A stretch of DNA of 64,000 bases from Telmatactis stephensoni (lineage: Eukaryota > Cnidaria > Anthozoa > Actiniaria > Isophelliidae), in assembly GCA_029948255.1 (NCBI GenBank), contig JALIZF010001784.1, positions 558,001 to 622,000 of the forward strand, written 5' to 3'. Shown here in pieces: positions 33,070 to 62,198 of the stretch. A program made the position numbers and the translations under genes. A model generated the notes under the pieces. It worked only from the letters and a program-made list of their open reading frames with translations. It was not told the DNA's origin and searched no databases. Numbering within the stretch: the stretch's first letter is position 1; every line of letters begins with the position of its first letter.

Positions 33070-36000
33070 TCATAACATTTGTTCTGCAGTTTTACTGTAC
33101 GTTGCATGAGTGTTTTCATGAATTTCAAGGTCTTTTCTTTGTTCAAACGACTTTCCACAGATTTGGCACACACATGGTTTTACAGTATCATGAATATTTT
33201 TTTCATGTTTTTTAAGCAGTTGTTTCAGTCGAAATGCCTTTCCACAGGTATCACATTTGAATGGCTTTGCAACAGTATATAAAGATTCATGGATTTTCAG
33301 AGGTGATCTTTGCTGAAATATGCTTCCACTTTTAGTTGTATGTATTCTTTCATGCACTCTGAGATTTCTTTTTAGTTTAAATGCCATTCCACAGGCATTA
33401 CATTCAAATGGTCTTGCATCAAATGGTCTATGCATTGATTCGTGGGTTTCAAGTTCTTTCTTTTTCAAAAATGCAATTCCACAGATGGTGCATTCATATG
33501 GAATCTTGGCATCATGTATCTTTTCATGCACTTTGAGGCCTCTTTTTAGCTTAAATGCCTTCCCACAGGTCTTACATTCAAATGGCTTTTTGTTAGTATG
33601 TGTTACTTCATGCATGTTGAGTGTGTATTTTAGTTTAAACGTCTTTCCACAAGTCTTACATTCAAATGGTCGTGCATCACTATGCAATGCTTCATGAGTT
33701 TGAAGATTTATTTTCGCCTTAAATGCCTTTCCACAGGTCTTACATTCAAATGGCTTTTTGTTAGTATGTAGTATTTCATGCTTGTTGAGATTTCCTTTTA
33801 GCTTAAATGCCTTTCCACAGGTCTTACATTCAAATGGTCTGGCATCACTATGCACTGATTTGTGGATATCAAGAATTGTTTTTCGCTTAAATATCTTTCC
33901 ACAAGTACTACATTTAAATGGTCTTACATCACTATGCACTGACTCATGGGTTTTAAGACTTGTTTTACGCTTAAATGTTTTGCAGCAGATTTTACATTCG
34001 AGCTTGTCGACGTCACTGTTAATTGATCCATACAATTCTTCATTTTGTGAACAAGTAAATGATTTCTTGGAGATAATTGCAGGTTGACCTTCAGCATTTG
34101 GGCAATTATTTACAATTGCATCACTTAGATTTCGAGCTTCTACATATGTATCTCCAGTAACGTCAGCCCTATCTTGGATTGTTTTTTCACCATCACATAC
34201 TTCATTACTTTGACTGTAAGCTCCTACATTGTAGCCACCAGTAACATGTGCCACATCTGCAATTATACTTGCAATATCACACATTTCATCACTTTGGCAA
34301 TGGGTTGCTACTTTGTTATCTCTAACCACATCTTGAATTGTACTCTCATCATCACACACTTCCTTACGTAGAGCGTGGACTTCATAACCTCCAGAGACAT
34401 GTACAATATCTGAGGGTTTGTGCTCACTTTGACTATGAGTTTTAACTTTATAATTCGCCGTAACTTCAGCCATATCTTGGATTTTACTCTCACTACATAG
34501 CAATTCACCATGACATTGTCCTGATGCAACATTGCGCATTTCTGGATAAGGGCTTTCCATAGGGTTTCCTCTTTCAATTCGTGTGTCTTGGTCATTCAAG
34601 TTATTATCAACATATGGGGATGTACATCCATTATAACATCCATAATCATCTGTTTGTGTTCCAATACAGGAAAGTTGTCGTCCATAAATAGGTGTTCCTT
34701 TTTCAAGGCCCTAGAAAATTTTTAAATTTGTACAAAAATTAAAGAAAATTTATATTCTATACACCAAACATGGGGGACAATGTGGGACAACCTGAGTCCA
34801 TGCAGTTTCATGAAATTGAGGCTACTCAGTCATCTACCAAGAAGAGTTTTCCCTTTGGTAGTTTTAGTTGGAATGCCATTGAAATCATGCTGATGGAAGA
34901 ACATATTCCTGGATCTCAGTAGTCTTTTTTGTAGAAAACCATCCATTCTCAAAACAGACAAACTTCATTTCTGGCAAAAATATAAAGGGGACTCTTCATT
35001 AAAAAGACTCAAAACAAAGGCACAGTCAAGTGGTGAGAGGCTCAACATTACATGTCAAACTGCATGGCTGTTGTCAAGATTAGAAATCAATTTTAGGAAC
35101 ATAGAATTGGTAAAGATACATATAAATTGATTAAGTGATAATTCCACGGTACAGCACACCATGAACCACTACAGAAGGCAAGTATCCAGTGTTAATATGC
35201 CTAAATTTAAAAAAAGGAAACACTTTTGCCACCTTTTCACATGTATAGCCTCTTTGAGCAACAGACAACACAATTACAGTGAAAGGCATAGATTTAAAGA
35301 AGTTTGATTCAAAGTAAAAAGTAAATTAAAAACACCACAAGCATCTAAACAGCAGTGAACTCTCTTGATCGACTCAATGAACAAATGACTGACTGGCTTT
35401 GATTTCATGAAACTTGGCCTAGACCAGCTGTGCTGTCAAACCGTTGTCAACATATTTTCAGTGGGTATATATTAATGTACAGTAGTTGTTGACTGAGTTT
35501 AAGGGCCAATGTGAAAATATTTGGCTCATTAGGTCATGTCTGCATGGACCTCTCTGTGCTCAGTCCATGCTGAATGATGAAGAGCCAAATATTTTCCCAT
35601 CAAGCCTGAGCTAACTCAGTCAATGAGCATTAATTTTTATCACACGATCCTTTATGTAATGATTGTATTTTCAATTTTTATTTTTATTAAAATATTATTT
35701 GATTGGCTACTTTGGCAAGAAATCCTTTTGCAGTTGACTGAGGAGCGAGCTTATACAATGCAAAGTTAAAGCCATTTTGATCCAGGAGGAGTGAGAGACA
35801 GAGATTTGCATTATTATTGGTGACACACTGCATGCATGAGTGTGTGCTACGTGTACAGTTGTATGGAGTCTCTTAGTCCTGGACCCCCCTTCTCTCCCTG
35901 GTGAGTATGGTAGACAGTAAGTACTCTTTCAGTGATACAGTGTGAGGGGTACTGGTGCAGATTTTGTATGAGTGTGAAAAACTACGGCACAGTTACGGCA

Positions 36001-37330
36001 CGACACGGACACCGCACGGAACAGGTCTCGCCTGCTGATTTCTTTACAAGAAGACATCAGCAGGCGAGGTTCCGTGCCATATCTATGTCGCACTGTAACC
36101 GTACCATAGTTTTTCACGCTCATACGAAATCTGCACTAAGTGGTGGATAGTGAATGGTTACCATAGTTATGACCTTATTGCCAGAGACAGGTGTGTCCCT
36201 CATGGTGGCTCTGCAGCACCCAAGCCCAACCTCATCACTGCTAATGAGTTTGAATTAAACTATACTGAACTACACAGATTTGAGGGAAGTCAAATGAATG
36301 AAGTACATACAATCATATAAGATTACTGCACAAATGATGCAAGCCAAACCTCTCACCCCAGGGGGGGACTCCTATATATAAGAGGATGGGGATGCTCGTC
36401 GGAAATCTTGAAAATGACCCCTAAAAGGTACCTGAGTGGGAGTGGCAACAATTCATTTCTACTCCTAAAAGGTACCAATTCAAAAACAATAATAAAGAAT
36501 TAAACTAATGAAACACTTTGTTATCGATGTGCTTTGAAGATGCAATGCAGATCATCAAAATCGTCCCTTTCATGCTTATTTTAGGTACTTTATTTACCCC
36601 AAAACAGTCCCTAAAAGGTACCAGCTATGCCTCTGGTAGTCCACTTAAGTCTGAGACACCCTAAAAGGTACCAGATTGCAGATTTTGACCCCTAAAAGGT
36701 CATTTGATCAAACTGGATGCATGCAATATTCCTGACCAATTATTTGGTGTATAGGTGATTCTAATTAATTATATGTGGGAGAAGGCAAGGTTTTGGGGTT
36801 CAAGGCCCGGGGGGGGGGGGGGACTCCAATCGTAAATGGATCCATGGGATGCTCGTCGTACCTTTTAGGGGTCAAAATCTGCAATCTGGTACCTAATAAC
36901 TATTGTTCTGGACTGTCTACCCTCTCATTCATGTGAAAGTGCTTTTGTGTTTCCATGTCAACACTAGGCTAGTACATCCAGAACAGGTCCAAATTCAATG
37001 CCATGGAATAACTATAGAAAACCCTACAAATGATATTCATGTAGACGATATTTTTGAAAGCGATGCAGAAACACATTATAGAAACCCAATAGGATTAATA
37101 TCATTAATATCATTTGGGGGGGTATTCTATAGTAATGTGCACAATGCCATATTTTAATTTTCATTGATACAGTATTTAGAAAGAAAGCCCTTGAGAGCAA
37201 TAATTATACTTACATTGGAATTGTCAGGCCATCTGTGTTCTGCAGTCACTTTGTTGTAATAAAACAACAGTTCTCCTGACTTACAAAAGAACTCCATCCA
37301 ATCTGTATCAAGAGTTGATGATGACTCCAT
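33070..37330 (-). CDS. WW-domain/C2H2 zinc-finger protein, paralogue 1
   Basis: Two exons, 37214-37330 and 33070-34710, join in phase 0 to 585 residues. Exon 1 is a 39-residue WW-like domain: W11 and W34 are 22 residues apart, with the FYYNKVT core aligning with YYYNHIT of typical WW domains, though the usual His is Lys. Exon 2 opens with a linker containing GTQTDDYGCYNG, then about five degenerate acidic repeats of 20-28 residues (for example EVCDGEKTIQDRADVTGD). The C-terminal half has ten C2H2 fingers (CKTCGKAFKLKGNLNKHEIL type) plus one degenerate finger that has lost its cysteines and last His (TTKSGSIFQQRSPLKIHESL). Linkers are HTNKKPF or HSDARPF rather than HTGEKPF. Such arrays bind DNA in the nucleus; WW domains bind proline-rich peptides. 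The roles of this combination are inferred. The 2.5-kb intron holds TIR elements. Confidence 0.88.
35945..36139. mobile_element. TTCGTATGA-family TIR element with long arms
   Basis: The ends GCAGATTTTGTATGAGTGTG and the inverted CACGCTCATACGAAATCTGC enclose CGGCAC-rich arms and a central palindrome (CTCGCCTGCTGAT / ATCAGCAGGCGAG). Related to 15599-15746, 51843-51977 and 62821-62966. Confidence 0.8.
36361..36890. mobile_element. CCCCTAAAAGGTACC element (copy 3)
   Basis: GGGGGGGACTCCTAT on the left and GGGGGGGGGACTCCAATCG near 36810 bracket a region with repeated CCTAAAAGGTACC. A further inverted piece GTACCTTTTAGGGGTCAAAA follows near 36860, so two copies may be nested. Confidence 0.55.
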
Positions 37331-38242
37331 GGTTTTCTGGATAAAATAAAATAAATAATTACAATGAATATTAAATTTGTCAGATCAGTTATTTAGATAT
37401 TGAAGTAAAAATGAGATTGAATCAATGAATTATATATTTTCAATGATATTATATGATGATCTTTAGAAACACTTCCCTACTCAAAATTTGGACATTTCGG
37501 TAATGCTATGTTTAATTTAAGTTCCTGAATTTCATGAATTCACTTATAAGTTTAAATGCTATCACTTCTTTGCATATTGCATGTATTCTTCTACAAAATG
37601 AAATCTAATATATTAAATTAAACTTTCTCAACTCATAGACCAACCATCTCAGGGTTAGAATGTGTCCCTTAGGAGAGGGGGATCACAAAACCACACAATG
37701 TAATGCAATATGCACTGTGCAAAAGATGGACTATGATCACCCTTGCCTCTGAATGCATGCTAAATCCAGTGTTTTATGTTTGTGGAAGTATCTGGCATCA
37801 AGATCATCAACTGTTTAGTGATGTTTTTGGGGGGAAGGCATACATGTTCTTTTATGAGTCTTTCTGTGAAGTGAGACCATAAGTTTCTTTATAGTCTTGA
37901 AACTATTTATCAATAAGTAGCTAATTTAATTTATTAACTTCGCCATACAAAAAACAATACAATGACATATAATACATGAATTGTGTATTGTTTTGCAGTA
38001 CTAAACTCCATAAACCCTTTGCATCTAGCTACTAGTAATATACAGACCCTTCACTCCACCTCGCTTTGGCCCAGTAATTAACCATGCCATTGTTTAGCTA
38101 TGCCGAAGTAAGGTGAGAGGTGTATCTGCATATGGTAAGCAGTATATATTATGGAAAGGGTAACTACATTTTGTAGTTTGAGAGCAAAAATACAATAAAC
38201 TGTTGTAAGCTTACATCTAGATTATGAAAAATCAAAATAAAT

Positions 38243-38278
<36 letters not shown>

Positions 38279-39326
38279 ATAAAACCGTTGCAGTACCACA
38301 ACTAGTAGAGACTAGTGGAAAACAGACTGAGAATGTTTATCAGCACTTTTAAGTTATATGCAGGCTCATGCAAGTCCATTCAATTCGACAACGGAGTACT
38401 TAGATTTTCAATTGGAGGTGGTTTGCTTCTGCATCTGGAATTTCGTTTCTTTCAAGTGCCTTCATTTTGGCAGCCGTTAAATTATTTGCCACACGTCATA
38501 TTTCATGGAAATACATTCATCAAACGAACAACGATTTCGTGACATTTCTCGTGGGGAATATGATGACGTTATCAAAAAGCTAATATCAGAACTATTCATC
38601 ACACGAAACTGTTTCCTAGATATTTTATTTATATCATTAAGAAAAGTCTTCACACAAAAAACTGAGTTCTTTCGATGGATGGTTTTTTTTTTTTGTTTTT
38701 TTTTTTTGCGAGTCAATTTCTGTCACGCAACACTGTCACGTATATCGTAAAGACGCAGAATTATACTTAGGAAAATGTGATTCAAATCGTATGACTTTAA
38801 CTTTGTAAGTGGTAAATAAATTTGTTTTGGTGAATATTTGCATAGAAAACACGAATTATAGCGATATTAACGCTATTTACAAAGGTTGACGGCACCAAGA
38901 TGGCGGACCCGCATGCATGCCCACCAAACAATGAAGATATTTGATCGATATTTGATCTCGTTATCAAAATATTCTTATGACTAAAAATTTCGTATAGATA
39001 CAAACTTTCAACTGATTTTATTGATGCAAGACATTTTATTCAAAAATATTCTATATTGAGCCCGAAAAATGTTATGATGAATCTTTCTTTATAGCTCGAT
39101 CATTAATATCCTGCAGTTGTTGACAAGCAAATTGCCTCGCAGCATTGCACTTTATAATTCTTCTATTAGTAATGAGCTTGTACATAAAGAAAGCACTCTT
39201 TACAGGGTTATACAGCAACAATTATTATGGATTAATTTACCTTTCTATAGAATTCCTAAACTCTCAAGATGGTCCTCTAGTAGACAGGTAACAACTCCAT
39301 GTAAGGACGATGGTGTAACACACATG
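37331..39326. other. Upstream flank of WW/zinc-finger paralogue 1, no gene seen
   Basis: AT-rich sequence with a (GAT)n run at 38246-38278, and a C/T-poor T run at 38680-38710. Short ORFs on both strands around 38477-38750 overlap each other and show no domain. Confidence 0.55.
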
Positions 39327-40385
39327 GTAGGTGTTGTAGTACTTGTAGTAGGTGTAGTATCCGTAATTAGTGTAGTAGCTGTAGTACCTGTAGTACGTGT
39401 ATCTATAGTAGCGTCTATAGTAGCACCTGGGCCCAGTTGTACGAAGGTTGGATAAAGTTATCCACCGGATAAGAATTACCCACTGTATAGATTTTGTATA
39501 GATTTTATCCGCTGGATAAGGATTTATCCGCTGGATAGCGCTATTCACCCTTCGTACAACCGGCCACTGTAGTAGAAGTAGTGCCTGTAGTAAGTGTAGT
39601 ATCTGTAGCACCTGTAGTAGGTGTAGTAGACCTAGTACAGTACTTCTCATAACATAGGCTGTGTAAACGTAGTAGGTGTAGTATTTGTAGTAAGTGTAGT
39701 GGTTGTAGTTGGTGTAGTACCACTAGTAGATGTTGTAATACTTGTAGTAGGTGTAGTTTCTGTAGTTCGTGTAGTACTTGTAGTATTTGTAGTACGTATA
39801 GTACCTGTAGCACCTGTTGTAGGAAGGCTGTGTACACGTAGTAGGTGTAGTATTTGTAGTAGGTGTAGTGGTTGTAGTTGGTGTAGCACACATGGTAAGC
39901 GTAGTAGCAGTAGTATCTGTAGTACCTATAGTTAGAGTAGTACCAGTAGTAAGTGTAGCTGTAGTCAGTGTAGTACATGTGGTACCTGTAGTCAATGTAG
40001 TATCTGTAGTAGGGTGTAGTAGGTGTAGTATATGTAGTATATATATGCAGCACCTGTAGGAGAAGGAGTATCTGCATTGCGGTTTCATTAGTAGGTGTAG
40101 TACATGTAGTAATTGTAGTCAGTTTAGTATCTGTAGTCAGTGTAGTGTAGCACCTGTTGTATGGTGTAGTATTTATAGTATCTGTAGTGCCTGTAGTAGA
40201 TGTTATACCTGTAGTGTAGTTCCAGTAGTAAGTGTAGTACATGTAGCACCTGTAGTCAGTGTAGTATCTGTAGAACCTGTTGTAGGGTGTAGTATTTATA
40301 GTAGTACCTGTAGTAGGTGTTATTACCTGTAGTATATAGTACAAGTAGTAGGTGTAGTACATGTAGTACCTATATATGTAGTATG
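39327..40385 (+). repeat. Degenerate 9-bp minisatellite (GTAGTANNT)n, about 1 kb
   Basis: The plus strand repeats a nine-base unit GTAGTA plus three bases, usually ending in T (GTAGTACCT, GTAGTAGGT, GTAGTATCT, GTAGCACCT). Because the unit is three codons long, every frame stays largely open: plus-strand frames give V-V-x patterns, minus-strand frames Tyr/Thr-rich ones, including a 273-residue ORF. These are not genes. The array is split by a TIR element at 39430-39566. Confidence 0.9.
39430..39566. mobile_element. TIR element nested in the 9-bp minisatellite
   Basis: The ends GGCCCAGTTGTACGAAGG and CCTTCGTACAACCGGCC (inverted) enclose repeated GGATAA and TTATCC words. Minisatellite sequence resumes immediately on both sides, so it inserted into the existing array. 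Confidence 0.8.
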
Positions 40386-40439
40386 TGGCAACTCTTCTTA
40401 TCTATGTAAGTTGAATTCTTTCATTAGAAAGACTCGATT

Positions 40440-40830
40440 CATTTATAGTTCAACTATAGGAGACGGAGACTCTGCGCGCGCCATTATAAAATTAACAAAT
40501 TGAAGATGGTTTTGAGTTGTCTGTTCTCTTATTGACACACTCTTGATGTCATAAAATGTTCAAAACTCAAGTGGAATCACCAGCGCAGCGAGTGGTTTCA
40601 CTGCAAAGTTTTGAACATTTTATGGCGTCAAGAGTGTGTCAATAAGAGGACAGACAATGAAAAACCATCTTCAATTCGTTTTTTACAACAATTATTTGAG
40701 ATAAAAGTTAAAAAATCCTTTTCAAACGGGGCAACAGAACGAGCGCGCGCGCTGAAACGCGTCAGCGGTGTGTCTGTCCTCTTATTGACACACTCTAATC
40801 AACCAATCAGATCGCGAGATTAGTATCAAG
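40440..40830. repeat. Long palindrome, about 150-190-bp arms
   Basis: AAGATGGTTTT and TCTTATTGACACACTC on the left pair with GAGTGTGTCAATAAGA and AAAACCATCTT on the right around a centre near 40590. The outer parts include GCGCGCGC. Further TTATTGACACACTC near 40780 suggests a second, shorter arm. Confidence 0.75.
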
Positions 40831-44080: not shown

Positions 44081-44084
44081 CAGG

Positions 44085-44195: not shown

Positions 44196-44669
44196 AGCCC
44201 ACACACACATAAGGCACAATTCAGAACATTTATTTGCCTTGAAGTTTATTTTTTGATCTCACCCATAATTGGCCCTCCAAAAGCGCACCTATATCACCTA
44301 TAAAATCCAGTCAACGTTTGAATTTATCATTCTGGAAAGAACATTGTTAGAACTTTACAAAACCACTGGATATGTCAGTAGTGTCAGTAAGAATCCTCTA
44401 TCATAGCATGGCAGTGTAAAACTATTAAGCCCAACGTTTACGTAAAAATCCCCCTACAACTAGTAAGCTTTTACACACACTGATGCCCAGGGCCAGGTTA
44501 AACCTACAGTACAAGGCATGGTTCAATGAGGTCTTCACTGTCTTAAAACTACTCTATAAAGCAATGCACAGTCATTAATTATCGACAATCATTGTTGCCA
44601 ACCATTGTTTTCCTACAAGTTGCTATCTTGTTTCTTGCACAATTTTAAGTAAAAGCCCAGTAATACGAG

Positions 44670-44935
44670 CAACAGAATCATGCCACTTGTCGCGCAACAT
44701 TGTTCGCTGCAAGTTGTTGAGCGATGTTGCTCGTATTACCGCCCCGCGCGCAGCTTGTCACGCAACAAAAAATCGATGTTGCAGGTTGCGGCTACTTGTT
44801 GCAAAAAGTGGTTCTATTTTGTGGAACAAATTATTTTTTTGTTTGTTACGTGATAAGTTGCGCGCGGGGCGGAAATACGAGCAACAATGTTGCGGGACAA
44901 GTTGCATGATTTTGTTGCCCGTATAACCGCACCTT
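44670..44935. repeat. TIR-like element with ACGAGCAACA words (empty site for the copy-B LINE)
   Basis: ATACGAGCAACA and TGTTGCTCGTAT words recur in both orientations with GCGCGCGGGGCGG and CCGCCCCGCGCGC. The corresponding element in copy B (56020-57600) is split at GTATT by a retrotransposon. Confidence 0.7.
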
Positions 44936-45904: not shown

Positions 45905-46127
45905 TTGTAATGATGCTTACAATACTGATGATGCTTAAGACTTGCTCGGTTGGCATAAAATAGGTCACAGGGTGTACATTCACGTGGTTTTAATTATGGT
46001 TTTTACATCTTTTAAGCTCAGTGTTGTTTTCGTCGAAATGCCTTTCCACGTATACCAAATTCAAATGGTTTAGAGTCAGTGAGCAGGCTTTCGTGACTTG
46101 CGAGTGGTATTTTAAATTAAAATCCTT
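45905..46127 (-). pseudogene. Decayed zinc fingers downstream of the paralogue 2 stop
   Basis: Past the TGA, finger-like pieces continue in other frames: KPFEFGIRGKAFRRKQH, then KPRECTPCDLFYANRASLKH followed by HQYCKHH. They show the array was once longer. The last piece keeps a C-x2-C and His residues. Confidence 0.6.
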
Positions 46128-49100
46128 TCAAAAGGTACTGCATTTTAATGGCTTTCCAGCACTATGCAATGATTCATGGGTTGTAAGGTGTTTCTTAAAC
46201 CAAAATTCTTTTCCACAGATACTGCATTTTAATGGGGTCTTGGCAGTATGTATTCTTTCATGCCCTTTAAGGTGGTCTTTTCGCTTAAATGCCTTTCCAC
46301 AGGTATTGCATTCAAATGGCTTTTGGTTAGTATGTATTCTTTCGTGCACTTTGAGATTTCCTTTGTGATTACATGCCTTTCCACAGGTCTTGCATTCAAA
46401 TGGCTTTTTGTTATTATGCACTCTTTCATGCACTTGGAGAACTCCTTTTTGTTTAAATGCCTTTCCACAGGTATTGCATTGAAATGGCTTTTGGTTAGTA
46501 TGTATTCTTTCGTGCACTTTGAGATTTCCTTTCTGATGAAATGCCTTTCCACAGGTATTGCATTGAAATGGCTTTTGGTTAGTATGTATTCTTTCGTGCA
46601 CTTTGAGATTTCCTTTGTGATTACATGCCTTTCCACAGGTCTTGCATTCAAATGGCTTTTTGTTATTATGCACTCTTTCATGCACTTGGAGAACTCCTTT
46701 TTGTTTAAATGCCTTTCCACAGGTCTTGCATTCAAATGGCTTTTCGTTATTATGTATTCTTTCATGCACTTTGAGATTTCTTTTGTGATTAAATGCCTTT
46801 CCACAGGTCTTACATTTAAATGGATTTTCATTATTATGTATTCTTTCATGCACTTTAAGGTGGTCTTTTCGCTTAAATGCCTTTCCACAGGTCTTACATT
46901 TAAATGGATTTTCGTTATCATGTATTCTTTCATGCATTTTGAGAACTCCTTTTCGCTTAAATGCCTTTCCACAGGTCTTGCATTCAAATGGCTTTTGGTT
47001 ACTATGTATTCTTTCATGCGCTTTGAGATTTCCTATTAGCTTAAATGCCTTTCCACAAGTCTTACATTCAAATGGTCTTGCATCATTGTGAACTGATTCA
47101 TGGGTTTTAAGAGTTGCTTTTCGCTTAAATGCTTTTCCACACATACTACATTCAAATAGTTTTGTATCGGCATGCACTGATTCGTGAACTTTTAATGTTC
47201 CTATCCGAGTAAATCTCTCTCCACGGTTCTTGCATTTACGTGGTCCATCTGTATTGGTGTGTTCCAGTTCATCACACTGCAGATTATGTCTTGTTGAAAA
47301 TGACTTGCAGCAGATTTTACATTTGAGCTTGACAACACTGTTAATTGATCCATACAATTCTTCATTTTGTGAACAAGTAAATGATTCCTTGGAGATAACT
47401 GCAGGTTCACCTTTAGCTTTGGAGAAAGCATCAGTTACATCACTTACATTGTGAGCTTCTACACTGCTATTTCCATTCACTTTGGACTCATCATGGATCC
47501 TACTCTCTTCGTCACACACTTCATTACTTTGACCATTTGGAGCTTCCTTGTTAATTCCAGTATCTCCAGCCATATATTGGACTATACTCTCACCAACAGA
47601 CACTTCATCACTTTTACTATTCGCTACTCCATTGATATCTCCAGTATCTTGAGCCATATCTTGGATTATACTCTCACCATCACACCTTAGATAACTTTGA
47701 CAATGAGCTGTTAAATTGTTATCTCCAGTAACTTCAGCTATATCTTGGGCTATACTCTCACTATCAAACACTTCCTCAATTTGACAGTGAGCTGCTAAAT
47801 TGTTATCTCCAGTAACTTCAGCTATATCTTGGACTGTACTCGCACCATCACACACTGCATCTTTTTGACTATTGGCTGCTCCAATGTAACCTCCAGTAAC
47901 TTGTGCCATATCTGAGGTTGTACTCTCTTTTTCACTATCAGTTGGTACTTCATAATCTCTGGTAACTTCAGCAAAATCTTGAATTGAACTCTCACTGTCT
48001 AACGCTTTATTGCTGCATTCTTCCATTGCTGGTAACATAACATTACACCCATCTGCATAGGAGCTTTCTGTAGGGATTTCTCTTTCAATTCCTGTATTGT
48101 CTTGCTCATTCAAGTTATTATCAACATATGGGGATGCACATCCATTGTAACATCCATAATCATCTGTTTGTGTTCCAACACAGAGAAATAATTGTTGTCC
48201 ATAAATTGGTCTTCCTTTTTCATAGCCCTAGAGATACAATGAATACTATATGATTTTTTTATATTTTTGTAGTAGTTGTTGTTGTTTTTGAAAAATTATG
48301 AAATTGAGAAAAAATATATATTATATATCTAATTATACATGGATGAATTTGATCTTACAAAAAAAAAAATTTAAAAACTTGCAACTTATACAATGTAGAA
48401 GTGTGTAACAACTTAAATTTGATAGCTTGCAAGCTATCATTTTATTGATAAAGGCCATTCATACATGTACATTTTGCATGTACATTTGAAACCAAAGATA
48501 AATCAAGTTATATTAATTATCATTATGAATCCTGATTGCAGATTTAAGATTATTTTTGTATGATGAGTTATCAAAATTGAGAATCAAAATAAATCATAAA
48601 TGTTTTCTCTGTGTTTTAAATAAATGTCACACTTCTTATTAATAAGTACTTTTCCGGAGTATAATTATGTACCTCCACCTCTTACCGGTAAGGGTGACAA
48701 TTATATTTATTAATTAATAAACAGATGGTCTCCTTCCACAAAATAAATTGATCCTTCAAGGGCAGTGCTGGCCATAACCCTCTGATCAGCTGCCCTGAAC
48801 TTAACACAGATTAGAGAGCAGTCAAATACATAACATACATACATACACATGTAAAGATTGTGGCACAACAATGTGGGCCAAACTGTCAACCTCTAATCCT
48901 TGCTCCTTTTGCTCTTGGCTAAATCCAAATCACTTGGTATTTAGAAATAAAGTTTTTGGGTGCAATAATTATACCCGGGGGGAAGGGGGGGGAATACTCA
49001 GCCCTCTTTTGGATAGGGGTGTGCCACTGGAGCTCTAGAACCCTGACCCTATCTAAGACACTCTAAAGTGAAAAAATCCTACCCTATTCAAGACAAATGA

Positions 49101-50129
49101 GAAGAAAATCGACCTGTCGCGTAATGAGACAAAAAATGGCTACAAAAGAGATAACAGAGCTGTTAACTACGATATACTTTGTCAGCAAGTCAGTGGTAAT
49201 CTTGCACGGCAAGGCTGTTTTTTGTATATTTTAAGAACAGTACCCTATCTAAGACACAAAAACATATGGCTTGTGATTCCTTGTCAAAATTATAGAATGA
49301 TCCTGTTTAATTTAATCCATTTACACTGCATTTAACACAAGGGAAAATGTACATACATATATATAAGAAAACTAATCAGAAATTAAATAAATACAACGAA
49401 AAAACTACTCAATAACTAAGAAAAATATGCAGTGGGGAAGGACAAGAAGGGAACATATGATCCATTCGAGCTAGTCCACCCAAAAAACGTACAAACACTT
49501 AACAGCAACAAAAAAACGTTAAAACTTTGTCATACATCCTATCGTATTCGTCGTCATATTCATCGACATATCCTATATTTATATATCTACCTGCTACCAA
49601 CAAGTTTTCACCCCATATAAGCAATACAGGACAGGCCCCCACGCGCCACAAGCAATATAGGATACATCATGACAATAAACATTGTCATAATATATCCCAC
49701 ACCGCCCAAGCAAGCAAGACAATTTTGGGTCAAATGTATACCCTGTTTAAGACAGCAGGGCCAAAAACCATACCCTATCCAGTGGCACAGACAGACAGAC
49801 AGAAGTTTTTATTTGGTGTCTTATATAACAAGCATATATATCAACCTTTTTCCAAATAAGTGTGGTGTTAACTTTAGATATATACAAGTACGGCTTTAAA
49901 TAAATATTAAATAAAGGTGCACTAAATCCTGCCTTGGCCCACGCTTTGGCACATACCCATATAGCAAATATATGGGAGTACCCCCCCCCCCCCAACTTGG
50001 AATTATACATACATTGAAATTGTCAGGCCATCTGTGTTCTGCTGTAACTTTGTTGTAATAAAACAACAGCTCTCCTGACTTACAAAAGAACTCCATCCAA
50101 TCTGTAGCAAGAGTTGATGATGACTCCAT
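46128..50129 (-). CDS. WW-domain/C2H2 zinc-finger protein, paralogue 2 (duplication copy A)
   Basis: Exons 50013-50129 and 46128-48227 join in phase 0 to 738 residues; donor AAT|GTATGTA, acceptor TATCTCTAG. The WW-like exon equals that of paralogue 1 except D8 to A and S38 to F. About seven acidic repeats follow (residues 117-300); the last five are spaced 28 residues apart (for example ESIIQDMAQDTGDINGVANS). The finger array starts near residue 343: two degenerate fingers (one with His to Cys, one with Cys to Arg), then twelve intact C2H2 fingers with HTNQKPF/HNNEKPF linkers. Two fingers have Cys in place of the core Phe (GKACNHKGNL). The block KQKGVLQ-ACNHKGNL occurs twice, a recent internal duplication. 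The ORF ends abruptly inside a further finger (KCSTF, then TGA), so the C terminus is truncated relative to the ancestor. Likely a nuclear DNA-binding regulator (inference). Confidence 0.88.
48228..50012 (-). other. Intron of WW/zinc-finger paralogue 2
   Basis: Contains a G-run-bordered repeat with CTATCTAAGACA words (48975-49990), ending in a C run next to the WW exon. The same repeat is in copy B (61440-62060). A block near 49312-49715 is missing from copy B. Confidence 0.7.
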
Positions 50130-50147
50130 ATTATCTGAATATAAATA

Positions 50148-50457
50148 AATAATTTAATAATAATAATAATAATGTTTAAGATTTATATATCGCAAATATC
50201 TATGTGTATATAAACAAATGCGGTTGAAATGAACTGAACTGAAATGAAGTATAATGACAACATAAAGTAGCTAAGAATCCCAACTGGCGAGGAGGCAAAC
50301 CAGTTGGCTATATTACAAGCATGGCCGAGAAACTGAATTTGAACTAATCGAAATCGGAACAAATTCAGTCTCAGCTAGTGGGCATAGCAGGAATTGAACC
50401 TGGGACCGCCAGATTGCGAGACCAACGCTCTGACCACTCGGCCATGCTGCCTCCTAT
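50148..50457 (-). mobile_element. SINE, apparently full length, inserted only in copy A
   Basis: On the minus strand it begins GGAGGCAGCATGGCCGAGTGG, a tRNA-like head with A box GGCCGAGTGGTCAGAGCG and B box GGTTCAATTCC. A unique body follows, then an (ATT)n tail. Copy B reads straight through (ATAAATAATTTACACTG) without it. A short ATTTA at both edges is a candidate target-site duplication. Confidence 0.75.
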
Positions 50458-50837: not shown

Positions 50838-51094
50838 AATATTGAGAGATCATCACGGATATGTAAGCAATTTAGGCAATTGCTTTAGAAAAGCCCGAAA
50901 AAAATTCGGGGCTTCAATGGGATTCGAACCCATGACCTTTGCGATACCGGTGCAATGCACCGGCATTGCACCGGTATCGCAAAGGTCATGGGTTCGAATC
51001 CCGTTGAAGCCCCGAATTTTTTTCGGGCTTTTCTAAAGCAATTGCCTAAATTGCTTACATATCCGTGATGATCTCTCAATATTTCTAGTTCCAT
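50838..51094. repeat. Palindrome of two head-to-head tRNA-like units
   Basis: The arms (50838-50955 and 50962-51094) meet at GCACCGGCATTGCACCGG. Each arm holds the tRNA-like 3' half with B box GGTTCGAATCCC, then CGAAAAAAATTCGGGCTTTT-like sequence and ATCACGGATATG. Both strands therefore encode nearly the same ORF, an artefact. It is absent from copy B. Confidence 0.85.
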
Positions 51095-51177: not shown

Positions 51178-51249
51178 GGCTTCATAGCTCAGTTGGTAGA
51201 GCATTGCACCGGTATCGCAAAGGTCATGGGTTCGAATCCCGTTGAAGCC
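51178..51249 (+). tRNA. tRNA-Thr-like sequence, probably SINE-derived pseudogene
   Basis: 72 bases fold as a cloverleaf: acceptor GGCTTCA/TGAAGCC, D arm GCTC/GAGC, T arm ATGGG-TTCGAAT-CCCGT, and anticodon arm TTGCA/CGCAA with one mismatch. The loop CCGGTAT gives anticodon GGT, but position 33 is C instead of the invariant U. Its 3' flank repeats that of the adjacent palindrome, so it is more likely a mobile tRNA-like unit than a working gene. Confidence 0.5.
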
Positions 51250-51611
51250 CCGAATTTTTTTTTGGGGCTTTTCTAAAGCAATTGCCTAAATTGCTTACAT
51301 ATCCGTGATGATCTCTCAATATTTCTAGTTCCATTACCACGGATCAATCCATATACATATACACTTTTAAAAGTAAACTAGTTTTAAGGCCTTCTTTTTT
51401 GATAGATTGAGGTTAGTCTTTGATCAAGACAACATTAGATCTTACAAGATTGTTTGCCCAAAATGTCATAGGATAAGTCTGTTAACTTTGTGCTCGTGCT
51501 AAATAGTATTTTTTCTTCCTGTGTTATTCTCAATTATTATATTATTTTTGCTTACATAGTTTGTTAGCTGAATCTGCATGTAAATAAATAAATATTAAAT
51601 AAATAATATAA

Positions 51612-51830: not shown

Positions 51831-51842
51831 AAAGTGTATCAT

Positions 51843-51977: not shown

Positions 51978-52261
51978 GAAATTTACCCTATGTAGTGGTA
52001 CTGGAAAATGGTGCAATTCCCAGCTGGGGTCAAACATTGGGAATCCCTGGGAATCTGTTCTATTTTTACAAGTTTGAGTATAACAGATTTCACAAGTAAA
52101 ATACAACAGATTTACAGTTTAGACCCAGGAAAACCCCAAGTTGGGAATTGACATTTTTTTTCTTGTGTATAGGGAATGTGAATGAGTCTTGGAGATATAA
52201 GCAGTATTTGCTACTCTGAAATCCAAGGATAAAAAAAGATTTGATTTGATTTTGATATATT

Positions 52262-53180: not shown

Positions 53181-53881
53181 AATATATAGACAATTGAAGA
53201 AACATTGTCAGCTAGGTCTAAAAACATTAAGAACATAGATGCTGGTCGAGACTGAAATATTGCATAGGATGTGAATAATTATATTCTGATTTATTCATTT
53301 AATTACACTGTCTTGCTTGTGTCTAGATGGGATCCTTGCAAACAAGGTTTGGTTAGTTTTAGGGCTATAGTTTAGGGCTTTGTTTTTACAAAGTCTTCCC
53401 AAATACTAACCCTAAACCTAACCAAACCATGTTTGCAAGGATCCCATGTATTATAGCCACAACCTTTACACTTGCCTTCGATGCCAAATGCTGAAAGCAA
53501 TTGCAGTGTAAATGAGTAATTCAGAATACAATTATTCACATCCCATGCACCATTTCGGTCTCAGCTTCCATGTTCTATGTTTTATGTTCCGAAACCCTTG
53601 TCTTATTCCTCCATAGCTAATTATAAGCAATCAGGATCAATGGATAATCTCTACAACTGACGCGAGCAAAATATTTTACAACTTTGCGCGCGTATTTCAG
53701 GGTTTTCGACAAATTCCTGTAAACGATTTTAGCAATATTGGAGAAATTAACTTCAACAGCCCCAGTGCTAACTGAGCTATACTGACTTCAGCTTTGCCAA
53801 CTTTGGCATTCAATGGACTTTGCTTGATTACCATGTATGTCTAAGCATTTTCTACGATCGCATTCCACAATCATATCTAGT

Positions 53882-55615
53882 AAGCTTTTTTGCATAAACA
53901 AGAGTTCTTTACAGAGTTATTAATTCATAATTATGAATAAATTTACCTTTTAATTTATACACCAGATACAGCTCGTGAAGAAGATGCGCACCATCAACCA
54001 CACTGTCACCACAGGAAGACCGAAACATTTTCTACACCAAGGCCCGCGTTGCTTTCAGCGGGCCCTGGGTTGCGTGACGACACAAACTGCGGCTTCGTAG
54101 GAGACTACCCCTCCCCTAAAGGCCGGCTGTAATTCGAAATGGCTTTGGTTCAAAATATCAGATATGTGAAAGGGGTTTTTTACGACCAAAGCCAGTGGGG
54201 AATAAATCCGTGTGTACGAACTGAAACCATTTGGAATCCCCCGGGCGCCAGAAATTTGGCTCGCTTTTAAGAAGTTTCGTTAATGGGCGATTCTTCCCAT
54301 ATGATTATTCACGATACGTAACGCGAGCCGAATCAAGTGGTCCGCGAATTATTTGGAATCGGTCAGGTTGCGTCTACGTCTGATTCCAAGTCAGGTCTAT
54401 TCGCTCCTTGGGCTTCCTGTGGTAGTCGCTCTAGACGACGTCCACACTAACGATTCTGGGCGCACATGGCTCGACCTGCCATAATCTGCTTCGCAGGCAT
54501 CCTTTGCGTCGTCAATCAATGCTTCCATTCCCAAGAAGCTATGTATTGCGTGACGACCAACTTTATATATATAATCACATAAAAAAAGCAATTTATACTG
54601 ACCCCCCTACCCCCAGCACCCACCCACAACATTTATACAAATTCAGTGTCCACAAAAATTTTCGCCCCACGTCCTTTTTAGCCCTGCAAGAAAGTGGCTT
54701 TCCTCTTTCTGCACCAGTCCCCTTGTTTCTCAATCCAAATAAATTTGGGAACTAATCTTTCTTCCCTCCGTTTTCACTATATCCATTCGTGGAATCAGAA
54801 AGAAAAGTTCACCGGTTTCCCAACTTAATATGAGACAAGCGGGTCGGGATCCGAATCTTTCTTTTCGCTATCCATTCGCAGAATCAAAAAGTTGACCGGT
54901 TTCCCAACTCAATATGAGGCGACACCCCCACCCTCTAGCGCATAGTAGCCCCTTCTTTGAAATGACCCCACCTAACTTTAGGTTATTTTGCAAGTTCCAT
55001 TCTTCTTAGATGAGGCTTTATCATGATGAGAGTTTGCGAGCAGTCGAATACTAAAGAAACCCAATCATACTGGAAAGAGTACATGTAGTCCATATTGCAT
55101 CATTTAGGTCGGGCCGGACAAGAACATAATTGACTCTCATTGATTTTGTATGGACTTCGACAAAATATTTTTCCGTCCGGCCCTGATCCTACTGTGTACA
55201 TTATTGTAGGAAAATGTGCAATTACATGTATGTGGTTACAGCCAGATTTGGAACTATACATTTTGATACATGCTGGGGTTAGAAAGAAATTTCTGGTATT
55301 TTTGAATAATTTACGTTGACTCGAGGCAAACGCTGTATAAATGCGCCTTTTGTCTGGAAACTTGTCTAGATCTGGAGACTCAGCAGTCTCTAGTAATAAG
55401 AAACTGGACTATTAGCGCCGCATCAGAAACCCAAAAATTTAATAAGCGCCGCGGCGCTAAAACGAGTAAATACGGTATTTTTTTCGTAAACCCTCCAACC
55501 CGGTCAATACTTACATGATCTCGTTTCACACAACATTAATATAAAATGTGTAATACACGTGTGGTTAATTACAGACCGAAGCGGAATAATACATTTTGAT
55601 ACATGCTGAAGCAAG
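53882..55615. other. Spacer between the two duplication copies, no gene seen
   Basis: Contains GC-richer sequence at 54000-54120 and a short local repeat (CATTTTGATACATGCTG at 55257 and again near 55591). No ORF with family features. Confidence 0.5.
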
Positions 55616-56094
55616 TCTCACCCATAATTGGCCCTCAGAAAGCACACCTATAATCTACAGTCAACGTTTGAATTTATCATCCTGGAAAGAATACTGTTAG
55701 AACTTTACAAAACCACTGGATATGTCATTAGTGTCAGTAAGAATCCTCTATCATAGCATGGCAGAGTCAGACTATTAAGCCCAACGGTTTCGTAAAAATC
55801 CCTCTTAGCTTATAACTAGTAAGCATTTTACACACACTGATGCCCAGAGCCAGGTTAACCCTACAGTACAAGGCATTGTTCAATGAGGCCTTCACTGTCT
55901 TAAAACTACTCTATAAAGCAATGCACAGTCTTTAATTATCGACAATCATTGTTGTCAACCATTGTTTTCCTACAAGTTGCTATCTTGTTTCTTGCACAAT
56001 TTTATGTTAAGGCCCAGAATTACGAGAAACAAAATCGTGCAACTTGTCGCGCAACATTGTTTGCTGCAAGTTGTAGAGCCATGTTGCTCGTATT

Positions 56095-57446
56095 GTTATT
56101 TGTTTTGTATGTAAATAACATTCCCGACTATTTATCAAGTCCTACAGTCATGTTTGCTGATGATACGTTAATTCATAATCGCTGTCCTTCATCTCTAACG
56201 TCCGACACTGCCCAAGAGAGTCTCGATCAAGTCAGTGATTGGTGTGGCTCGTGGCTTTTAAGAACTAACGCTGACAAATGCGAGTCCATGAAGTTTACCA
56301 GGGCAAGAACACCTGCTCCATGCAACTATATTATTGATAGCAAGCCACTTGTTCAAGTATCTACGCATAAACATCTTGGAGTGGTTCTCTCTGATGATTT
56401 ATCATGGAAATCTCACGTACTTTCTGTGGTTGCAAGATCAAACAGATTATTGGGCTTACTCAAGCGGACGTTTGGGACTCACTTTAAGGCTTTATTTACT
56501 GGTTATAAAGTGATGGTTCGCCCAATACTTGAGTACGCCTGTCAGGTGTGGAACCCCCACCAAGCATATTTGACCGAAAAACTTGAACGCGTCCAAAGAA
56601 ATGTTACAAGATGGATCATTGGTAAAGACACTCCATATGAAGATCGACTGAAATCCCTTAAGCTTCCGACGCTTGCTCATCGTAGAGAAATCCTGGGTCT
56701 GGTTCAACTTTTCAAGTTCATCAAAGGACATTCTGCTGGAAACACTAATGATTACATGTCATTCAGTAATAGGCAATCAAGAAACAGTCATCGCTATAAA
56801 CTTTATAAGCCATTTTGCCGTACAGATATTTTTAAGTACTCGTTCTGGCATAGATATATAGACACATGGAACAGTCTACCGGCATCAGTAGTAGAACATG
56901 AGTCAGTAAATAGCTTTAAAAAAGCTTTAAAGTCAACATTAATTGATTAGGCACTAAGTATGTTTACGTATTTAGTATTATATTAAATTAATTAAATTAA
57001 TTGATGTACATTATATCACCATATATAAGATTCAATGATCAAGTTTATATTCAATTCCATTCAAATATTCCATATATAAAGTCAACATTAATTGATTAGG
57101 CACTAAGTATGTTTACGTATTTAGTATTATATTAAATTAATTAAATTAATTGATGTACATTATATCACCATATATAAGATTCAATGATCAAGTTTATATT
57201 CAATTCCATTCAAATATTCCATATATATATATATATATATATATATTTTATAGAGAGTGAAATTTTATGACAGATTTTTATATTATATTGTATACTGTAT
57301 TGTATTGTTAAATGTATGTAAATGTATATTTATATAGTATATTTATTGGGGTATAGTTTAAAATGAGGATTCAGTTCCTCCCTTCTATGGCCCTGTTGTA
57401 GTAGTAATGTTATTTATTACAATTACAATAAAGTTATTATATATTA
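56095..57446 (+). mobile_element. 5'-truncated non-LTR retrotransposon with reverse transcriptase C-terminal half
   Basis: The ORF runs to the stop at 56950. It begins inside the reverse transcriptase at LLFVLYVNNIPDYL, continues through the catalytic FADD motif (PTVMFADDTLIHN), the KHLGVVLSDDLSWKSHV segment, and thumb/C-terminal parts (RPILEYACQVWNPH, WNSLPASVVEHESVNSFKKA). The layout is that of Jockey/CR1/L2-like elements. It splits the element seen intact at 44670-44935. GTATT occurs once there and at both ends here (56090-56094 and 57447-57451), a 5-bp target-site duplication. The 3' part has a 149-bp tandem duplication and an (AT)n run. It lacks the 5' reverse transcriptase domains and endonuclease, so it is not autonomous. 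Confidence 0.88.
56929..57226 (+). repeat. 149-bp tandem duplication at the LINE 3' end
   Basis: TAAAGTCAACATTAATTGAT begins at about 56928 and again at about 57077. The two 149-bp units look identical and include the last codons and the stop. An (AT)n run follows at 57220-57246. Confidence 0.9.
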
Positions 57447-58535
57447 GTATTACCGCCCCGCGCGCAGCTTGTCACGCAAAAAAATCGATGTTGCAGATTG
57501 CGGCTACTTGTTGCAAAAATGTAAAACGTGGTTCTACTTTGTGCGACAATTTTTTTGTTTTTGTTGCGCGACAATTGCACGATTTTGTTGCTCGTATATC
57601 CGCACTTAATATCAAATTCTTATAAACCTCAACATTAGAACAGTAACAAAATTATAATAAACACAATAAATGTACGTTTCAGTGAATGGATTGACACAAT
57701 TGGTGCTAGAAATATATGCTTCGTTGAGTGTCAAATAAAACTCGGGAAAATTCCGAGCCCTCAGCGTGGCTTGAACCCACGACCTTTGGATTTTCGGTCC
57801 GACGCTCAACAACTCAGCTATTTCAGTGAAGGCTCTTGTTAAGCAGATTGAAGTTTGTTCTTCTTTATGCTAAACGCGCTCGGGACCGACGTTGTCCGAT
57901 AGCCCGAGCAGAATGATTCCTACAGAAACTCTGCAGAACTACAACAAATGTAAGTTTATGAATGGAATTGTCATTCGGACAACGTCCGTCCCGCGCTCAC
58001 TCAGCATAAATAACGAACCTCGACCTGCTCGCCACTAGAGCCTTCAAATGGCTCAGTTGTTGAGCGTCGGACCGGAAATCCGAAGGTCGTAGATTCAAAC
58101 CACGCTGAGGGCTCAGAATTTTATTTCACACTCGACGAAGCATATACTATAATTCTAATAAATACAATGTTCATAACTTCACTCACTGTTTAGGATAGCA
58201 CTTCTTCAACAATAAAAATTGTCATTTTCAAAACCGGTTCATAATCATCATCATTTTTTTTTTCTTTTTGATTTACCAAGTGGGAATTCTAGATGTGCAA
58301 TTCGGCCAGAGATATGTCGTCAACGATAAACAAAGTCTGAAGCACCTTTCCTGTAATGTTGGAGATTGCACAAGCTCATAAAGTCTGATTTTTCCATTTC
58401 TAAATTATTTACCACAAGTTTTCAGAAACAAAACACAGAAATACAGGGATACTTTGAACTGTTCTTTCAAAGCAACGCGTCAATTTGCTTTTATGAATTT
58501 CTTGAAGGATATTTTGTCCGCCATCTTTGTTTTGT

Positions 58536-58743
58536 AATGATGCTTACAATACTGATGATGCTTAAGACTTGCTCTATTGGCATAAAATCGGCTACAGGGT
58601 TTACATTCATGTGGTTTTAATTATGGTTTTTACATCTTTTAAGCTCGGTGTTGTATTCGTCCAAATGCCTTTCCACGTGTACCAAATTCAAATGATTTAG
58701 AGTCAGTGTGCAGGGTTTCGTGACTTGCGAGTGGTATTTTAAG
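58536..58743 (-). pseudogene. Relic zinc fingers downstream of the paralogue 3 stop
   Basis: In frame past the TAA stop the sequence reads LKIPLASHETLH, then SFEFGTRGKAFGRIQH (cysteines lost), and after further stops KPHECKPCSRFYANRASLKH and HQYCKHH. The first relic shows the stop lies inside a finger. A donor-like GAG|GTATGT overlaps the stop, so splicing around it cannot be excluded. Confidence 0.6.
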
Positions 58744-61700
58744 TTAACATACCTCTCCAAAGGTACTGCATTTTAATGGCTTTCCAGCACTATGCAATGA
58801 TTCATGGGTTGTAAAGTGTTTCTTAGACCAAAATTCTTTTCCACAGATACTGCACTCAAATGGGGTCTTTGTAGTATGTATTCTTTCGTGCACTTGGAGC
58901 CCTCTTTTTCGCTTAAATGTCTTTCCACAGGTCTTACATTCAAATGGCTTTTCATCATTATGTAATTTTTCATGCACTTTGAGATTTCCTTTGTAATTAA
59001 ATGCCTTTCCACAGGTCTTACATTCAAATGGCTTTTCATCATTATGTAATTTTTCATGCACTTTGAGATTTCCTTTGTAATTAAATGCCTTTCCACAGGT
59101 CTTACATTTAAATGGCTTTTCGTTATTATGTATTATTTCATGCACTTTAAGGTGTTGTTTTAGCTTAAATGCTTTTCCACAGACACTGCATTCAAATGGT
59201 CTTGCTTCACTATGTATTCTTTCATGCTTGTTGAGATCTCCTTTTAGCTTACATGCCTTTCCACAGGCCTTACATTCAAATGGTCTTGCATCACTATGAA
59301 CTGATTGATGGGTTTTAAGATTTCCTTTTAGCTTAAATGCTTTTCCACAGGTACTACATTTAAATAGTTTTGCATTCCTTGATTCCTTGGAGATAACTGC
59401 AGATTCACCTTTAGCTTTGGAGAAAGTATCAGTTACATCCCTTAAATTGTGAACTTCGACACTGCTATTTCCATTAACTTCGGACTCATCATGGATCCTA
59501 CTTTCACCATCACACACTTCATTACTTTGATCATTTGGAGCTTCCTTGTTAATCTCAGTATCTCCAGCCGTATATTGGACTATACTCTCACCAACAAACA
59601 CTTCATCACTTTGCCTATGAGCTGCTAAATTGTTATCTTCAGTACCTTCAGCTATATCTTGGACTATACTCTCACCAACAGACACTTCATCACATTGACT
59701 ATTCGCTACTCCATTGATATCTCCAGTATCTTGAGCCACATCTTGGATTATACTCTCACCATCACACCCTAGATAACTTTGACAATGAGCTGTTAAATTG
59801 TTATCTCCAGTACCTTCAGCTATATCTTGGACTATACTCTCACCAACAGACACTTCATCACTTTGACTATTCGCTACTCCATTGATATCTCCAGTATCTT
59901 GAGCCATATCTTGGATTATACTCTCACCATCACACCCTAGATAACTTTGACAATGAGCTGTTAAATTGTTATCTCCAGTAACTTCAGCTATATCTTGGGA
60001 TATACTCTCACTATCAAACACTTCCTCAATTTGACAGTGAGCTGCTAAATTGTTATCTCCAGTAACTTCAGCTATATCTTGGACTGTACTCTCACCATCA
60101 CACACTGCATCCTTTTGACTATTGGCTGCTCCAATGTAACCTCCAGTAACTTGTGCCATATCTGAGGTTGTACTCTCTTTTTCACTATCAGTTGGTACTT
60201 CATAATCTCTGGTAACATCAGCAAAATCTTGAATTGAACTCTCACTGTCTAACTTTTTATTGCTGCATTGGTCCATTGCTGGTAACATAACATTACACCC
60301 ATCTGCATAGGAGCTTTCTGTGGGGACTTCTCTCTCAATTCCTGTGTCTTGCTCATTCAAGTTATTATCAACATATGGGGATGCACATCCATTGTAACAT
60401 CCATAATCATCTGTTTGTGTTTCAACACAGAGAAATAATTGTTGTCCATAAATTGGTGTTCCTTTTTCATAGCCCTAGAGATACAATGAATACTATATGA
60501 TTTTTTTATATTTTTGTAGTAGTAGTTGTTGTTGTTTTTGAAAAATTATGAAATTAAGAAAAAATATATATATATATATATATATCTAATTATACATGGA
60601 TGAATTTGATCTTACAAAAAAATTTTTTTAAACTTGCAACTTATACAATGTAGAAGTGTGTAACAACTTAAATTTGCTCTAAACATTATACTCTGACGAT
60701 GGGTAAAATGGAAAAGCTTGATTATAAATATTGTTGGAACAAATCAGCTATATGATACCAACCTACAACCATTGTTGAAGGTGAGATAACTGCTATTTAA
60801 CCAATTAACATGAATTGAAATACAAACTTCTCTCACATGATGATAATAAAATTTTGTTGGCTTCCAATTTTAATAAAATGCCCAAAAACTAGATGATAGC
60901 TTGCAAGCTCTCATTTTATTGATAAAGGCCATTCATACATGTACATTTTGCATGTACATTTGAAACCAAAGATAAATCAAGTTATATTAATTATCATTAT
61001 GAATCCTGATTACAGATTTAAGATTATTTTTGTATGATATGTGTTATCAAAATTGAGAATCAAAATAAATCATAAATGTTTTCTTTGTGTTTTAAATAAA
61101 TGTCACACTTCTTATTAATAAGTACTTTTCCGGAGTATATATACCTCTACCTCTTAAGGGTGACAATTATATTTATTAATTAATAAACAGATGGTCTCCT
61201 TCCACAAAATAAATTGATCCTTCAAGGGCAGTGCTGGCCATACCCCTCTGATCAGCTGCACTGAACTTAACACAGATTAGAGAGCAGTCAAATACATAAC
61301 ATACATACATACATGTAAAGATTGTGGCACAACAATGTGGGCCAAACTGTTAACCTCTAATCCTTGCTCCTTTTGCTCTTGGCTAAATCCAAATCACTTG
61401 GTATTTAGAAATAAAGTTATTGGGTGCAATAATTATACCCAGGGGGGAGGGGGGGGGAGGGGGGTACTCTGCAGCCCTCTTTTGGATAGGGGTGTGCCAC
61501 TGGAGCTCTAGAAACCTGACCCTATCTAAGACACTCTAAAGTGAAAAAATCCTACCCTATTCAAGACAAATGAGAAGAAAATCAACCTGTCGCGTAATGA
61601 GACAAAAATGGCTACGAATTAAAAGAGATAACAGAGCTGTCAACTACGATATACTTTGTCAGCAAGTCAGTGGTAATCTCGCACGGCAAGGCTGTTTTTT

Positions 61701-62198
61701 GTATATTTTAAGAACAGTACCCTATCTAAGACACAAAAACATGATATGGCTTGTGATTCCTTGTCAAAATTATAGATCCTGTTTAAGACAATTTTGGGTA
61801 AAATGTATACCCTGTTTAAGACAGCAGGGCCAAAAACCATATCCTATCCAGTGGCACAGACAGACAGACAGAAGTTTTTATTTGGTGTCTTATATAACAA
61901 GCATATATCAACCTTTTTCCAAATAAGTGTGGTGTTAACTTTAGATATACAAGTACGGGTTTAAATAAATATTAAATAAAGGTGCACTAAATCCTGCCTT
62001 GGCCCACGCTTTGGCACATACCCATATAGCAAATATATGGGAGTACCCCCCCCCCCCCCCCCCACTTGGAATTATACATACATTGAAATTGTCCGGCCAT
62101 CTGTGTTCTGCTGTTACTTTGTTGTAATAAAACAACAGCTCTCCTGACTTACAAAAGAACTCCATCCAATCTGTATCAAGAGTTGATGATGACTCCAT
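58744..62198 (-). CDS. WW-domain/C2H2 zinc-finger protein, paralogue 3 (duplication copy B)
   Basis: Exons 62082-62198 and 58744-60474 join in phase 0 to 615 residues; donor AAT|GTATGTA, acceptor TATCTCTAG. The WW-like domain keeps W11, W34 and YYN. The acidic region has about ten repeats, three more than copy A, including a doubled two-unit block (SVGESIVQDIAEGT then CDGESIIQDVAQDTGD). The array has only seven C2H2 fingers. Fingers 4 and 5 are identical (AFNYKGNLKVHEKL). The segment with the two degenerate N-terminal fingers of copy A is gone: the linker AVISKES runs straight to CSTCGKAFKLKGNL. The ORF ends KCSTFGEVC inside an eighth finger. A nuclear regulatory role is inferred from domain type. 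Confidence 0.88.
60475..62081 (-). other. Intron of WW/zinc-finger paralogue 3
   Basis: Non-coding. It contains the G-run-bordered CTATCTAAGACA repeat (61440-62060), which ends in a long C run beside the WW exon, as in copy A. About 210 bp near 60680-60895 (CATTATACTCTGACGATGGG onward) has no counterpart in copy A. Confidence 0.7.

Follow-up and report, generated by a model that had tools for sequence, protein, structure and literature searches.

We analysed a 64,000-nucleotide stretch of the sea anemone Telmatactis stephensoni (GenBank assembly GCA_029948255.1, contig JALIZF010001784.1, positions 558,001 to 622,000 of the forward strand; hereafter the window), in which three predicted genes, g1, g2 and g3, lie on the same (minus) strand and encode proteins of 585, 738 and 615 residues, respectively. 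We favour, at a probability of roughly 0.6, the reading that they are a small family of poly-C2H2 zinc-finger genes in tandem, with a WW-like domain, on an exon of its own, as N-terminal effector, and that the family re-targets its arrays in the manner of the KRAB- and FiNZ-zinc-finger (ZNF) genes. At the sequence level the genes are characterized by a near-invariant WW-like module, a conserved linker block, expandable acidic 28-residue repeats and an array renewed through duplication of its fingers. The C2H2 array would bind specific DNA, as expected from what is known of the finger family and from fingers scoring above the profile cut-off; a cradle made of F23, Y24, Y25 and W34 in the WW-like domain would bind a proline-rich cofactor as Prp40/FBP-type WW domains do; and the family would copy and re-target its arrays against shifting targets in the genome, probably repeats. 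Because the WW-like module stays constant while the array changes, it is the natural effector, and it probably binds a proline-rich partner.

Gene layout and a related protein in Actinia tenebrosa

Each gene begins with an ATG-bearing exon of 117 bp, followed by a GT...AG intron in phase 0 and a single long exon that encodes the acidic 28-residue repeat region and then the C2H2 array. The coordinates, strand, lengths and phase given in a preliminary description of this DNA proved correct when frames and splice sites were checked: the frames are open and a GT donor and an AG acceptor are present in all three copies, and splicing would join the WW-like exon to exon 2. The same description had called these two-exon genes, which is probably too low a count. 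A splice-acceptor-like sequence (..ATCCAG / ..ATTCAG) ends 5-6 bases 5' of each ATG, and an additional non-coding exon upstream is therefore likely. The features are as follows.

g1, coding parts 37330-37214 and 34710-33070, minus strand, 585 residues
37214..37330, minus: start-codon exon with WW-like domain, 39 codons, phase 0; donor AAT/GTAAGT (slash marks the junction)
34711..37213, minus: intron, 2503 bp; resembles g2/g3 sequence outside exon 2 in 12 bp at the donor and otherwise in short matches alone (38-73 bp or less)
33997..34710, minus: exon 2, first part; conserved block (TQTDDYG, C..GC.SPYVD), then acidic repeats
33070..33996, minus: C2H2 array with degenerate fingers besides 9 canonical ones
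g2, coding parts 50129-50013 and 48227-46128, minus strand, 738 residues
50013..50129, minus: WW-like exon
48228..50012, minus: intron, 1785 bp
47151..48227, minus: start of exon 2, with the conserved block, the 28-residue acidic repeats and degenerate fingers
46128..47150, minus: C2H2 array, 12 canonical fingers
45910..45978, minus: pattern-intact C2H2 finger beyond the stop codon
g3, coding parts 62198-62082 and 60474-58744, minus strand, 615 residues
62082..62198, minus: WW-like exon
60475..62081, minus: intron, 1607 bp
59371..60474, minus: start of exon 2, with the conserved block and the 28-residue acidic repeats
58744..59370, minus: C2H2 array, 7 canonical fingers
58537..58605, minus: pattern-intact C2H2 finger beyond the stop codon

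The same architecture was found in another cnidarian, where the preliminary description had proposed to look for it. An alignment of the three proteins retrieved a predicted Actinia tenebrosa protein of 642 residues, annotated as 'zinc finger protein 2-like isoform X4' (P0079 in our searches), whose N-terminus reads MSVSDQLDPDWYGYECKPGQLLFYYNKTTGEHRW and is followed by 12 canonical C2H2 fingers. Its WW-like N-terminus is 56 % identical over 39 residues to the window exon; its database annotation is without a WW domain. Behind the WW-like part it shares the block C-x3-C-x-S-x-Y-[VI]-D and a D/E-rich (18 %) middle, in which self-comparison found no internal repeat, unlike in g1-g3. Its linkers have the form TGxKPYK after 6 of the 12 fingers, whereas those of g1-g3 take forms such as NNEKPFE or SDARPFE. 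The WW-like motif occurred in one (P0079) of the best 120 of 3008 proteins matched by the whole alignment. Family searches with a method that needs shared 5-residue words yielded 6 candidates for the g3 N-terminus, none at an expectation value (E) <= 10, and 2 candidates for the P0079 N-terminus, of which P0079 alone stood at E <= 10.

The acidic 28-residue repeats described earlier for exon 2 are present in all three window genes. The repeat region holds 17-20 % D+E and 5-8 % K+R, and in g3 a run of 84 residues (3 x 28) faces a gap in g2. Taken as a whole, the middle region resembles that of P0079 weakly: 56, 13 and 2 of 500 shuffles score at least as high as g1, g2 and g3, respectively. The acidic repeats may act as a flexible spacer. 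Three other roles for parts of these proteins were considered. The idea of an activation domain was dropped, as a 9-residue activation-domain pattern was not enriched in the middle region of the four proteins (2000 shuffles, p 0.18-0.54). LC8 binding is speculation only: TQTD is kept in g1, g2 and g3, but P0079 has only SQT, and elsewhere. Finally, no PPxY, PPLP, PPR/K, PPP or LPxY motif that could serve as the proteins' own ligand occurs in g1-g3.

The WW-like exon

WW domains are recognized by two tryptophans about 20-22 residues apart and an aromatic YY core. The preliminary description had reported W-x22-W and a YYN core in the 117-bp exon, and both are present in all three genes; with P0079 included, W11-x22-W34 and an FYYN core are found in four of four sequences. 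It had also made its reading depend on at least a weak match to a WW profile, and here the outcome was divided: Pfam model PF00397 gave no row at E <= 10 for the WW-like exon, g1, the N-terminal 404 residues of g3 or P0079, but comparisons with sequences from the PDB, with profiles and with folds favoured WW. Because the PF00397 cut-off was not reached, we call the module WW-like and do not count it as a WW member.

Among PDB sequences, WW domains made up 17 of the 20 matches of the window exon (best E 0.0014), 8 of the 11 matches of the P0079 exon and 10 of the 17 matches of a profile built from all four sequences; PRPF40A topped all three lists, and hhalign gave a probability of 87.9 for the WW match. 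Against a WW profile, g3 scored 14.1 bits and P0079 17.9 bits, scores reached by 0 and 1 of 20,000 shuffles, respectively. A template-free AlphaFold model of the exon (predicted local distance difference test score 78.8) placed strands at residues 11-15, 21-26 and 32-33, and a Foldseek search with this model returned Pin1 or WWP2 entries in rows 1-28 among the 50 matches listed, with weak E-values. It might be argued that the likeness is due to chance or to a convergent beta-meander, the exon encoding an unrelated, lineage-specific zinc-finger-associated domain. The silence of Pfam and the weak Foldseek E-values would agree with this, as would the other proteins in the PDB lists (HOP/STIP1 TPR in 3/20 for the window exon and 5/17 for the profile, a fucose lectin in 3/11 for the Actinia exon, and two single non-WW chains for the profile) and a best g3 shuffle of 14.0 bits. 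We regard it as very improbable, given that WW proteins head all three lists, that hardly any shuffle equals the real scores, and that the model, made without templates, has WW proteins in its top 28 Foldseek rows.

The best sequence matches of the exon are the WW domains of PRPF40A, WBP4 (FBP21), TCERG1 and yeast Prp40, with which it has the YYN core in common; its third strand reads E-x-R-W as in the second WW domains of PRPF40A and WBP4. It differs from these domains in a tryptophan spacing greater by one residue and in being without flanking prolines. The Prp40/FBP-type WW domains of PRPF40A, WBP4 and TCERG1 bind proline-rich segments, and the proteins PRPF40A, WBP4, TCERG1 and Prp40 bear FF domains or a matrin-type finger and are not known to have C2H2 arrays.

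An exon that is WW-folded need not still bind proline. It could have turned to self-association or become a structural cap, as with the SCAN or ZAD modules, which act in dimerisation. In a WW domain the hydrophobic buckle consists of L-P before the first tryptophan and P three residues after the second, and these prolines are absent here (LDTDW / LATDW / LDPDW and WPDN / WNNN). In addition, K27 and H32 occupy what are, by WW numbering, the positions of the usual ligand-contact histidine and threonine, and exon residues outside the core are also near-unchanged between g1 and g2/g3. Nevertheless, the aromatic positions F23, Y24, Y25 and W34 are retained in four of four sequences, and the nearest solved relatives (PRPF40A, WBP4 and TCERG1) are binders of proline-rich ligands. 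We therefore consider a loss of proline binding unlikely and retain the reading of the exon as a probable proline-binding effector.

Constraint on the module and turnover of the arrays

The WW-like exon of g1 has 37 of its 39 residues as in g2 and 38 as in g3. The ratio of nonsynonymous to synonymous rates (dN/dS) for g1-g2 and g1-g3 is 0.14 and 0.05 in this exon, 0.80 and 0.55 in the following 50 codons, 0.65 and 0.77 in the acidic part, and 0.58 and 0.64 in the array, where the ratio ranges over 0.58-0.75; nonsynonymous change between g1 and g2 is lower in the WW exon than in the array (Fisher p 4.6e-9). Synonymous change is low too in the WW exon and the next block (p 0.0003), so that gene conversion may add to selection, or misaligned repeats may inflate the exon-2 values.

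Each gene has its C2H2 array, as the preliminary description held, with PF00096 scores well over the cut-off of 25.2 bits (136 for g1, 213.4 for the g2 array and 125.5 for the g3 array) and, by pattern, 9, 12 and 7 canonical fingers. In g2, the finger pairs 6/9 and 7/10 share 99 % identity, reflecting an internal duplication, and fingers 4 and 5 of g3 are 100 % identical over 84 bp. Among the 28 window fingers, summed entropy peaks at the DNA-contact positions -1, 2, 3 and 6 when all 2380 four-position subsets are compared; among the 12 fingers of P0079, 15 of 2380 subsets reach the contact-position entropy. The ratio of the proportions of nonsynonymous and synonymous differences (pN/pS) at contacts and elsewhere was 1.36 and 0.43 in 376 finger pairs, 1.77 and 0.42 in 165 pairs of higher identity, and 2.40 and 0.44 in the 53 pairs with at least 85 % identity, while in the 16 pairs with at least 90 % identity the contacts showed 19 nonsynonymous to 0 synonymous changes against a pN/pS of 0.46 elsewhere; the pairs within these sets are not mutually independent. 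In 14 non-overlapping nearest pairs the effect was weaker than in the full sets, with a pN of 0.245 and pS of 0.148 at contacts and of 0.099 and 0.230 at other positions (pN/pS 1.66 vs 0.43), and 68 of the 2380 subsets reached the contact pN. These results agree with the earlier claim of a fast-changing array: it has diverged more quickly than the sequence around it, most of all at codons for DNA-contact residues. An excess of amino-acid change at contact positions, finger duplication and an array outpacing its flanks are the dynamics of KZNF-like poly-zinc-finger genes, and all three are seen here.

Between g2 and g3, the best-aligned array pieces are 83-86 % identical, as against 91.7-96.0 % for intron pieces, 92.5-94.3 % for the upstream flank, 92.9 % for the 3' flank and 94.2 % for a 742-bp piece of the rest of exon 2. 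In a global alignment of the two introns, 1326 of 1355 aligned columns are identical, an upper value because the alignment is gappy. By these sequences, g2 and g3 stem from a single recent segmental duplication, and the three genes thus represent two old lineages. Synonymous change between g2 and g3 is raised in the array relative to the acidic part (p 0.016), which points to finger shuffling or to the pairing of non-corresponding fingers, besides selection. By sequence, g1 is an old lineage relative to g2/g3: outside exon 2 it has one long match to them, 89.7-92.6 % identical, which takes in the WW exon, 19-44 bp before it and 12 bp of the intron behind it, and otherwise matches of at most 73 bp.

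Behind the two different stop codons of g2 and g3 lie remnants of broken fingers together with a finger that is pattern-intact, and because of these we conclude from the sequence that the g2/g3 array was formerly longer than the present reading frames. This bears on the possibility that g2 and g3, or all three genes, are decaying, near-neutral copies with open frames but truncated arrays. Their arrays are cut ahead of a further pattern-intact finger, a tRNA-like insertion lies 20 bp upstream of the ATG of g2, and nonsynonymous versus synonymous change between g2 and g3 is not significant (p 0.17). However, g1 differs from g2/g3 at about 34-38 % of synonymous sites (synonymous differences per synonymous site, Sd/Ss, acidic part plus array), yet 585-738 codons have stayed open; non-contact finger codons show a pN/pS of 0.42-0.46, and the WW exon is under strong constraint. 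Decay is thus an improbable account, and we keep to a family with constrained modules and re-targeted arrays.

Relation to known families and neighbouring elements

Tetrapod KRAB-ZNF genes have a small effector exon before one array-bearing exon, stand in tandem clusters and diversify at contact residues. The exon layout, the clustering and the contact-residue diversification are shared with g1-g3. KRAB is a domain unrelated to the WW-like module and recruits TRIM28; the KRAB box model PF01352 gave no row in g1, the WW exon or the N-terminal 404 residues of g3, in a scan that did not include the g2 N-terminus. Poly-zinc-finger families that carry an effector particular to their lineage (KRAB, ZAD, SCAN, FiNZ) arose repeatedly, and to our knowledge the effectors of such families in non-bilaterian animals are little described. 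In the FiNZ-ZNF genes of cyprinid fish, many members are reported to be under positive selection and binding of the ZNF proteins to transposons is predicted (PMC10547256). The likeness to g1-g3 lies in a short conserved N-terminal module on a fast-evolving poly-zinc-finger family; the FiNZ module, found in about 700 zebrafish genes, differs in being 28 residues without similarity to known domains, and a term search of that paper did not find 'WW domain' (PMC10547256).

As the preliminary description had supposed, no described family that combines a WW domain with a C2H2 array was found in titles and abstract openings of the open-access papers listed. The kind of family is known, and its WW-like effector appears to be new. 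Because a predicted sea anemone protein shares the layout of the three genes, they look like a counterpart, so far undescribed, of those zinc-finger families in other animals that keep pace with changing DNA targets. By analogy with KRAB- and FiNZ-genes, genes of the g1-g3 type might track transposons. More tentatively, and with the odds well against it, they could be a non-bilaterian counterpart of the KRAB-ZNF genes, in which an anthozoan WW-like exon brings in a shared proline-rich partner, silencing or activating, and the fast-turning C2H2 arrays follow transposons. A WW-like effector, if true, would tie a poly-zinc-finger family to proline-rich partners. The short, near-frozen exon offers a handle for finding the family in other genomes, for capturing the common cofactor and for asking whether cnidarians run a transposon-tracking zinc-finger system.

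Several other elements were seen in the window. The insertion upstream of the g2 start codon (50149-50455, about 307 bp, missing at the matching place in g3) has an ATT-repeat tail and contains a tRNA-like sequence (50379-50451, minus strand; Rfam tRNA model at 23.5 bits, under its cut-off of 29); these features suggest that it is probably a tRNA-derived short interspersed nuclear element. At 50887-51034 there is a fold-back repeat with the tRNA T-arm-like sequence GGTTCGAATCCC on both arms, which several microRNA models matched below their cut-offs, and at 51178-51251 (plus strand), within the zinc-finger cluster, a complete tRNA-Thr (GGT) gene or tRNA-derived repeat. A reverse-transcriptase-like frame at 55904-56950 (PF00078, 27.5 bits, just below the cut-off of 29.6) overlaps at its start a block 90 % identical to 44257-44737, and a perfect tandem duplication of 151 bp lies at 56928-57227. 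Farther from the genes are an open frame matching the tyrosine-recombinase (phage integrase) family at 307-786 (minus strand, 28.1 bits, cut-off 27.1), likely a mobile element; an open frame at 4354-4980 (minus strand) with weak WD40-repeat matches, all below cut-off; and an ankyrin-repeat open frame at 25275-25739 (plus strand).

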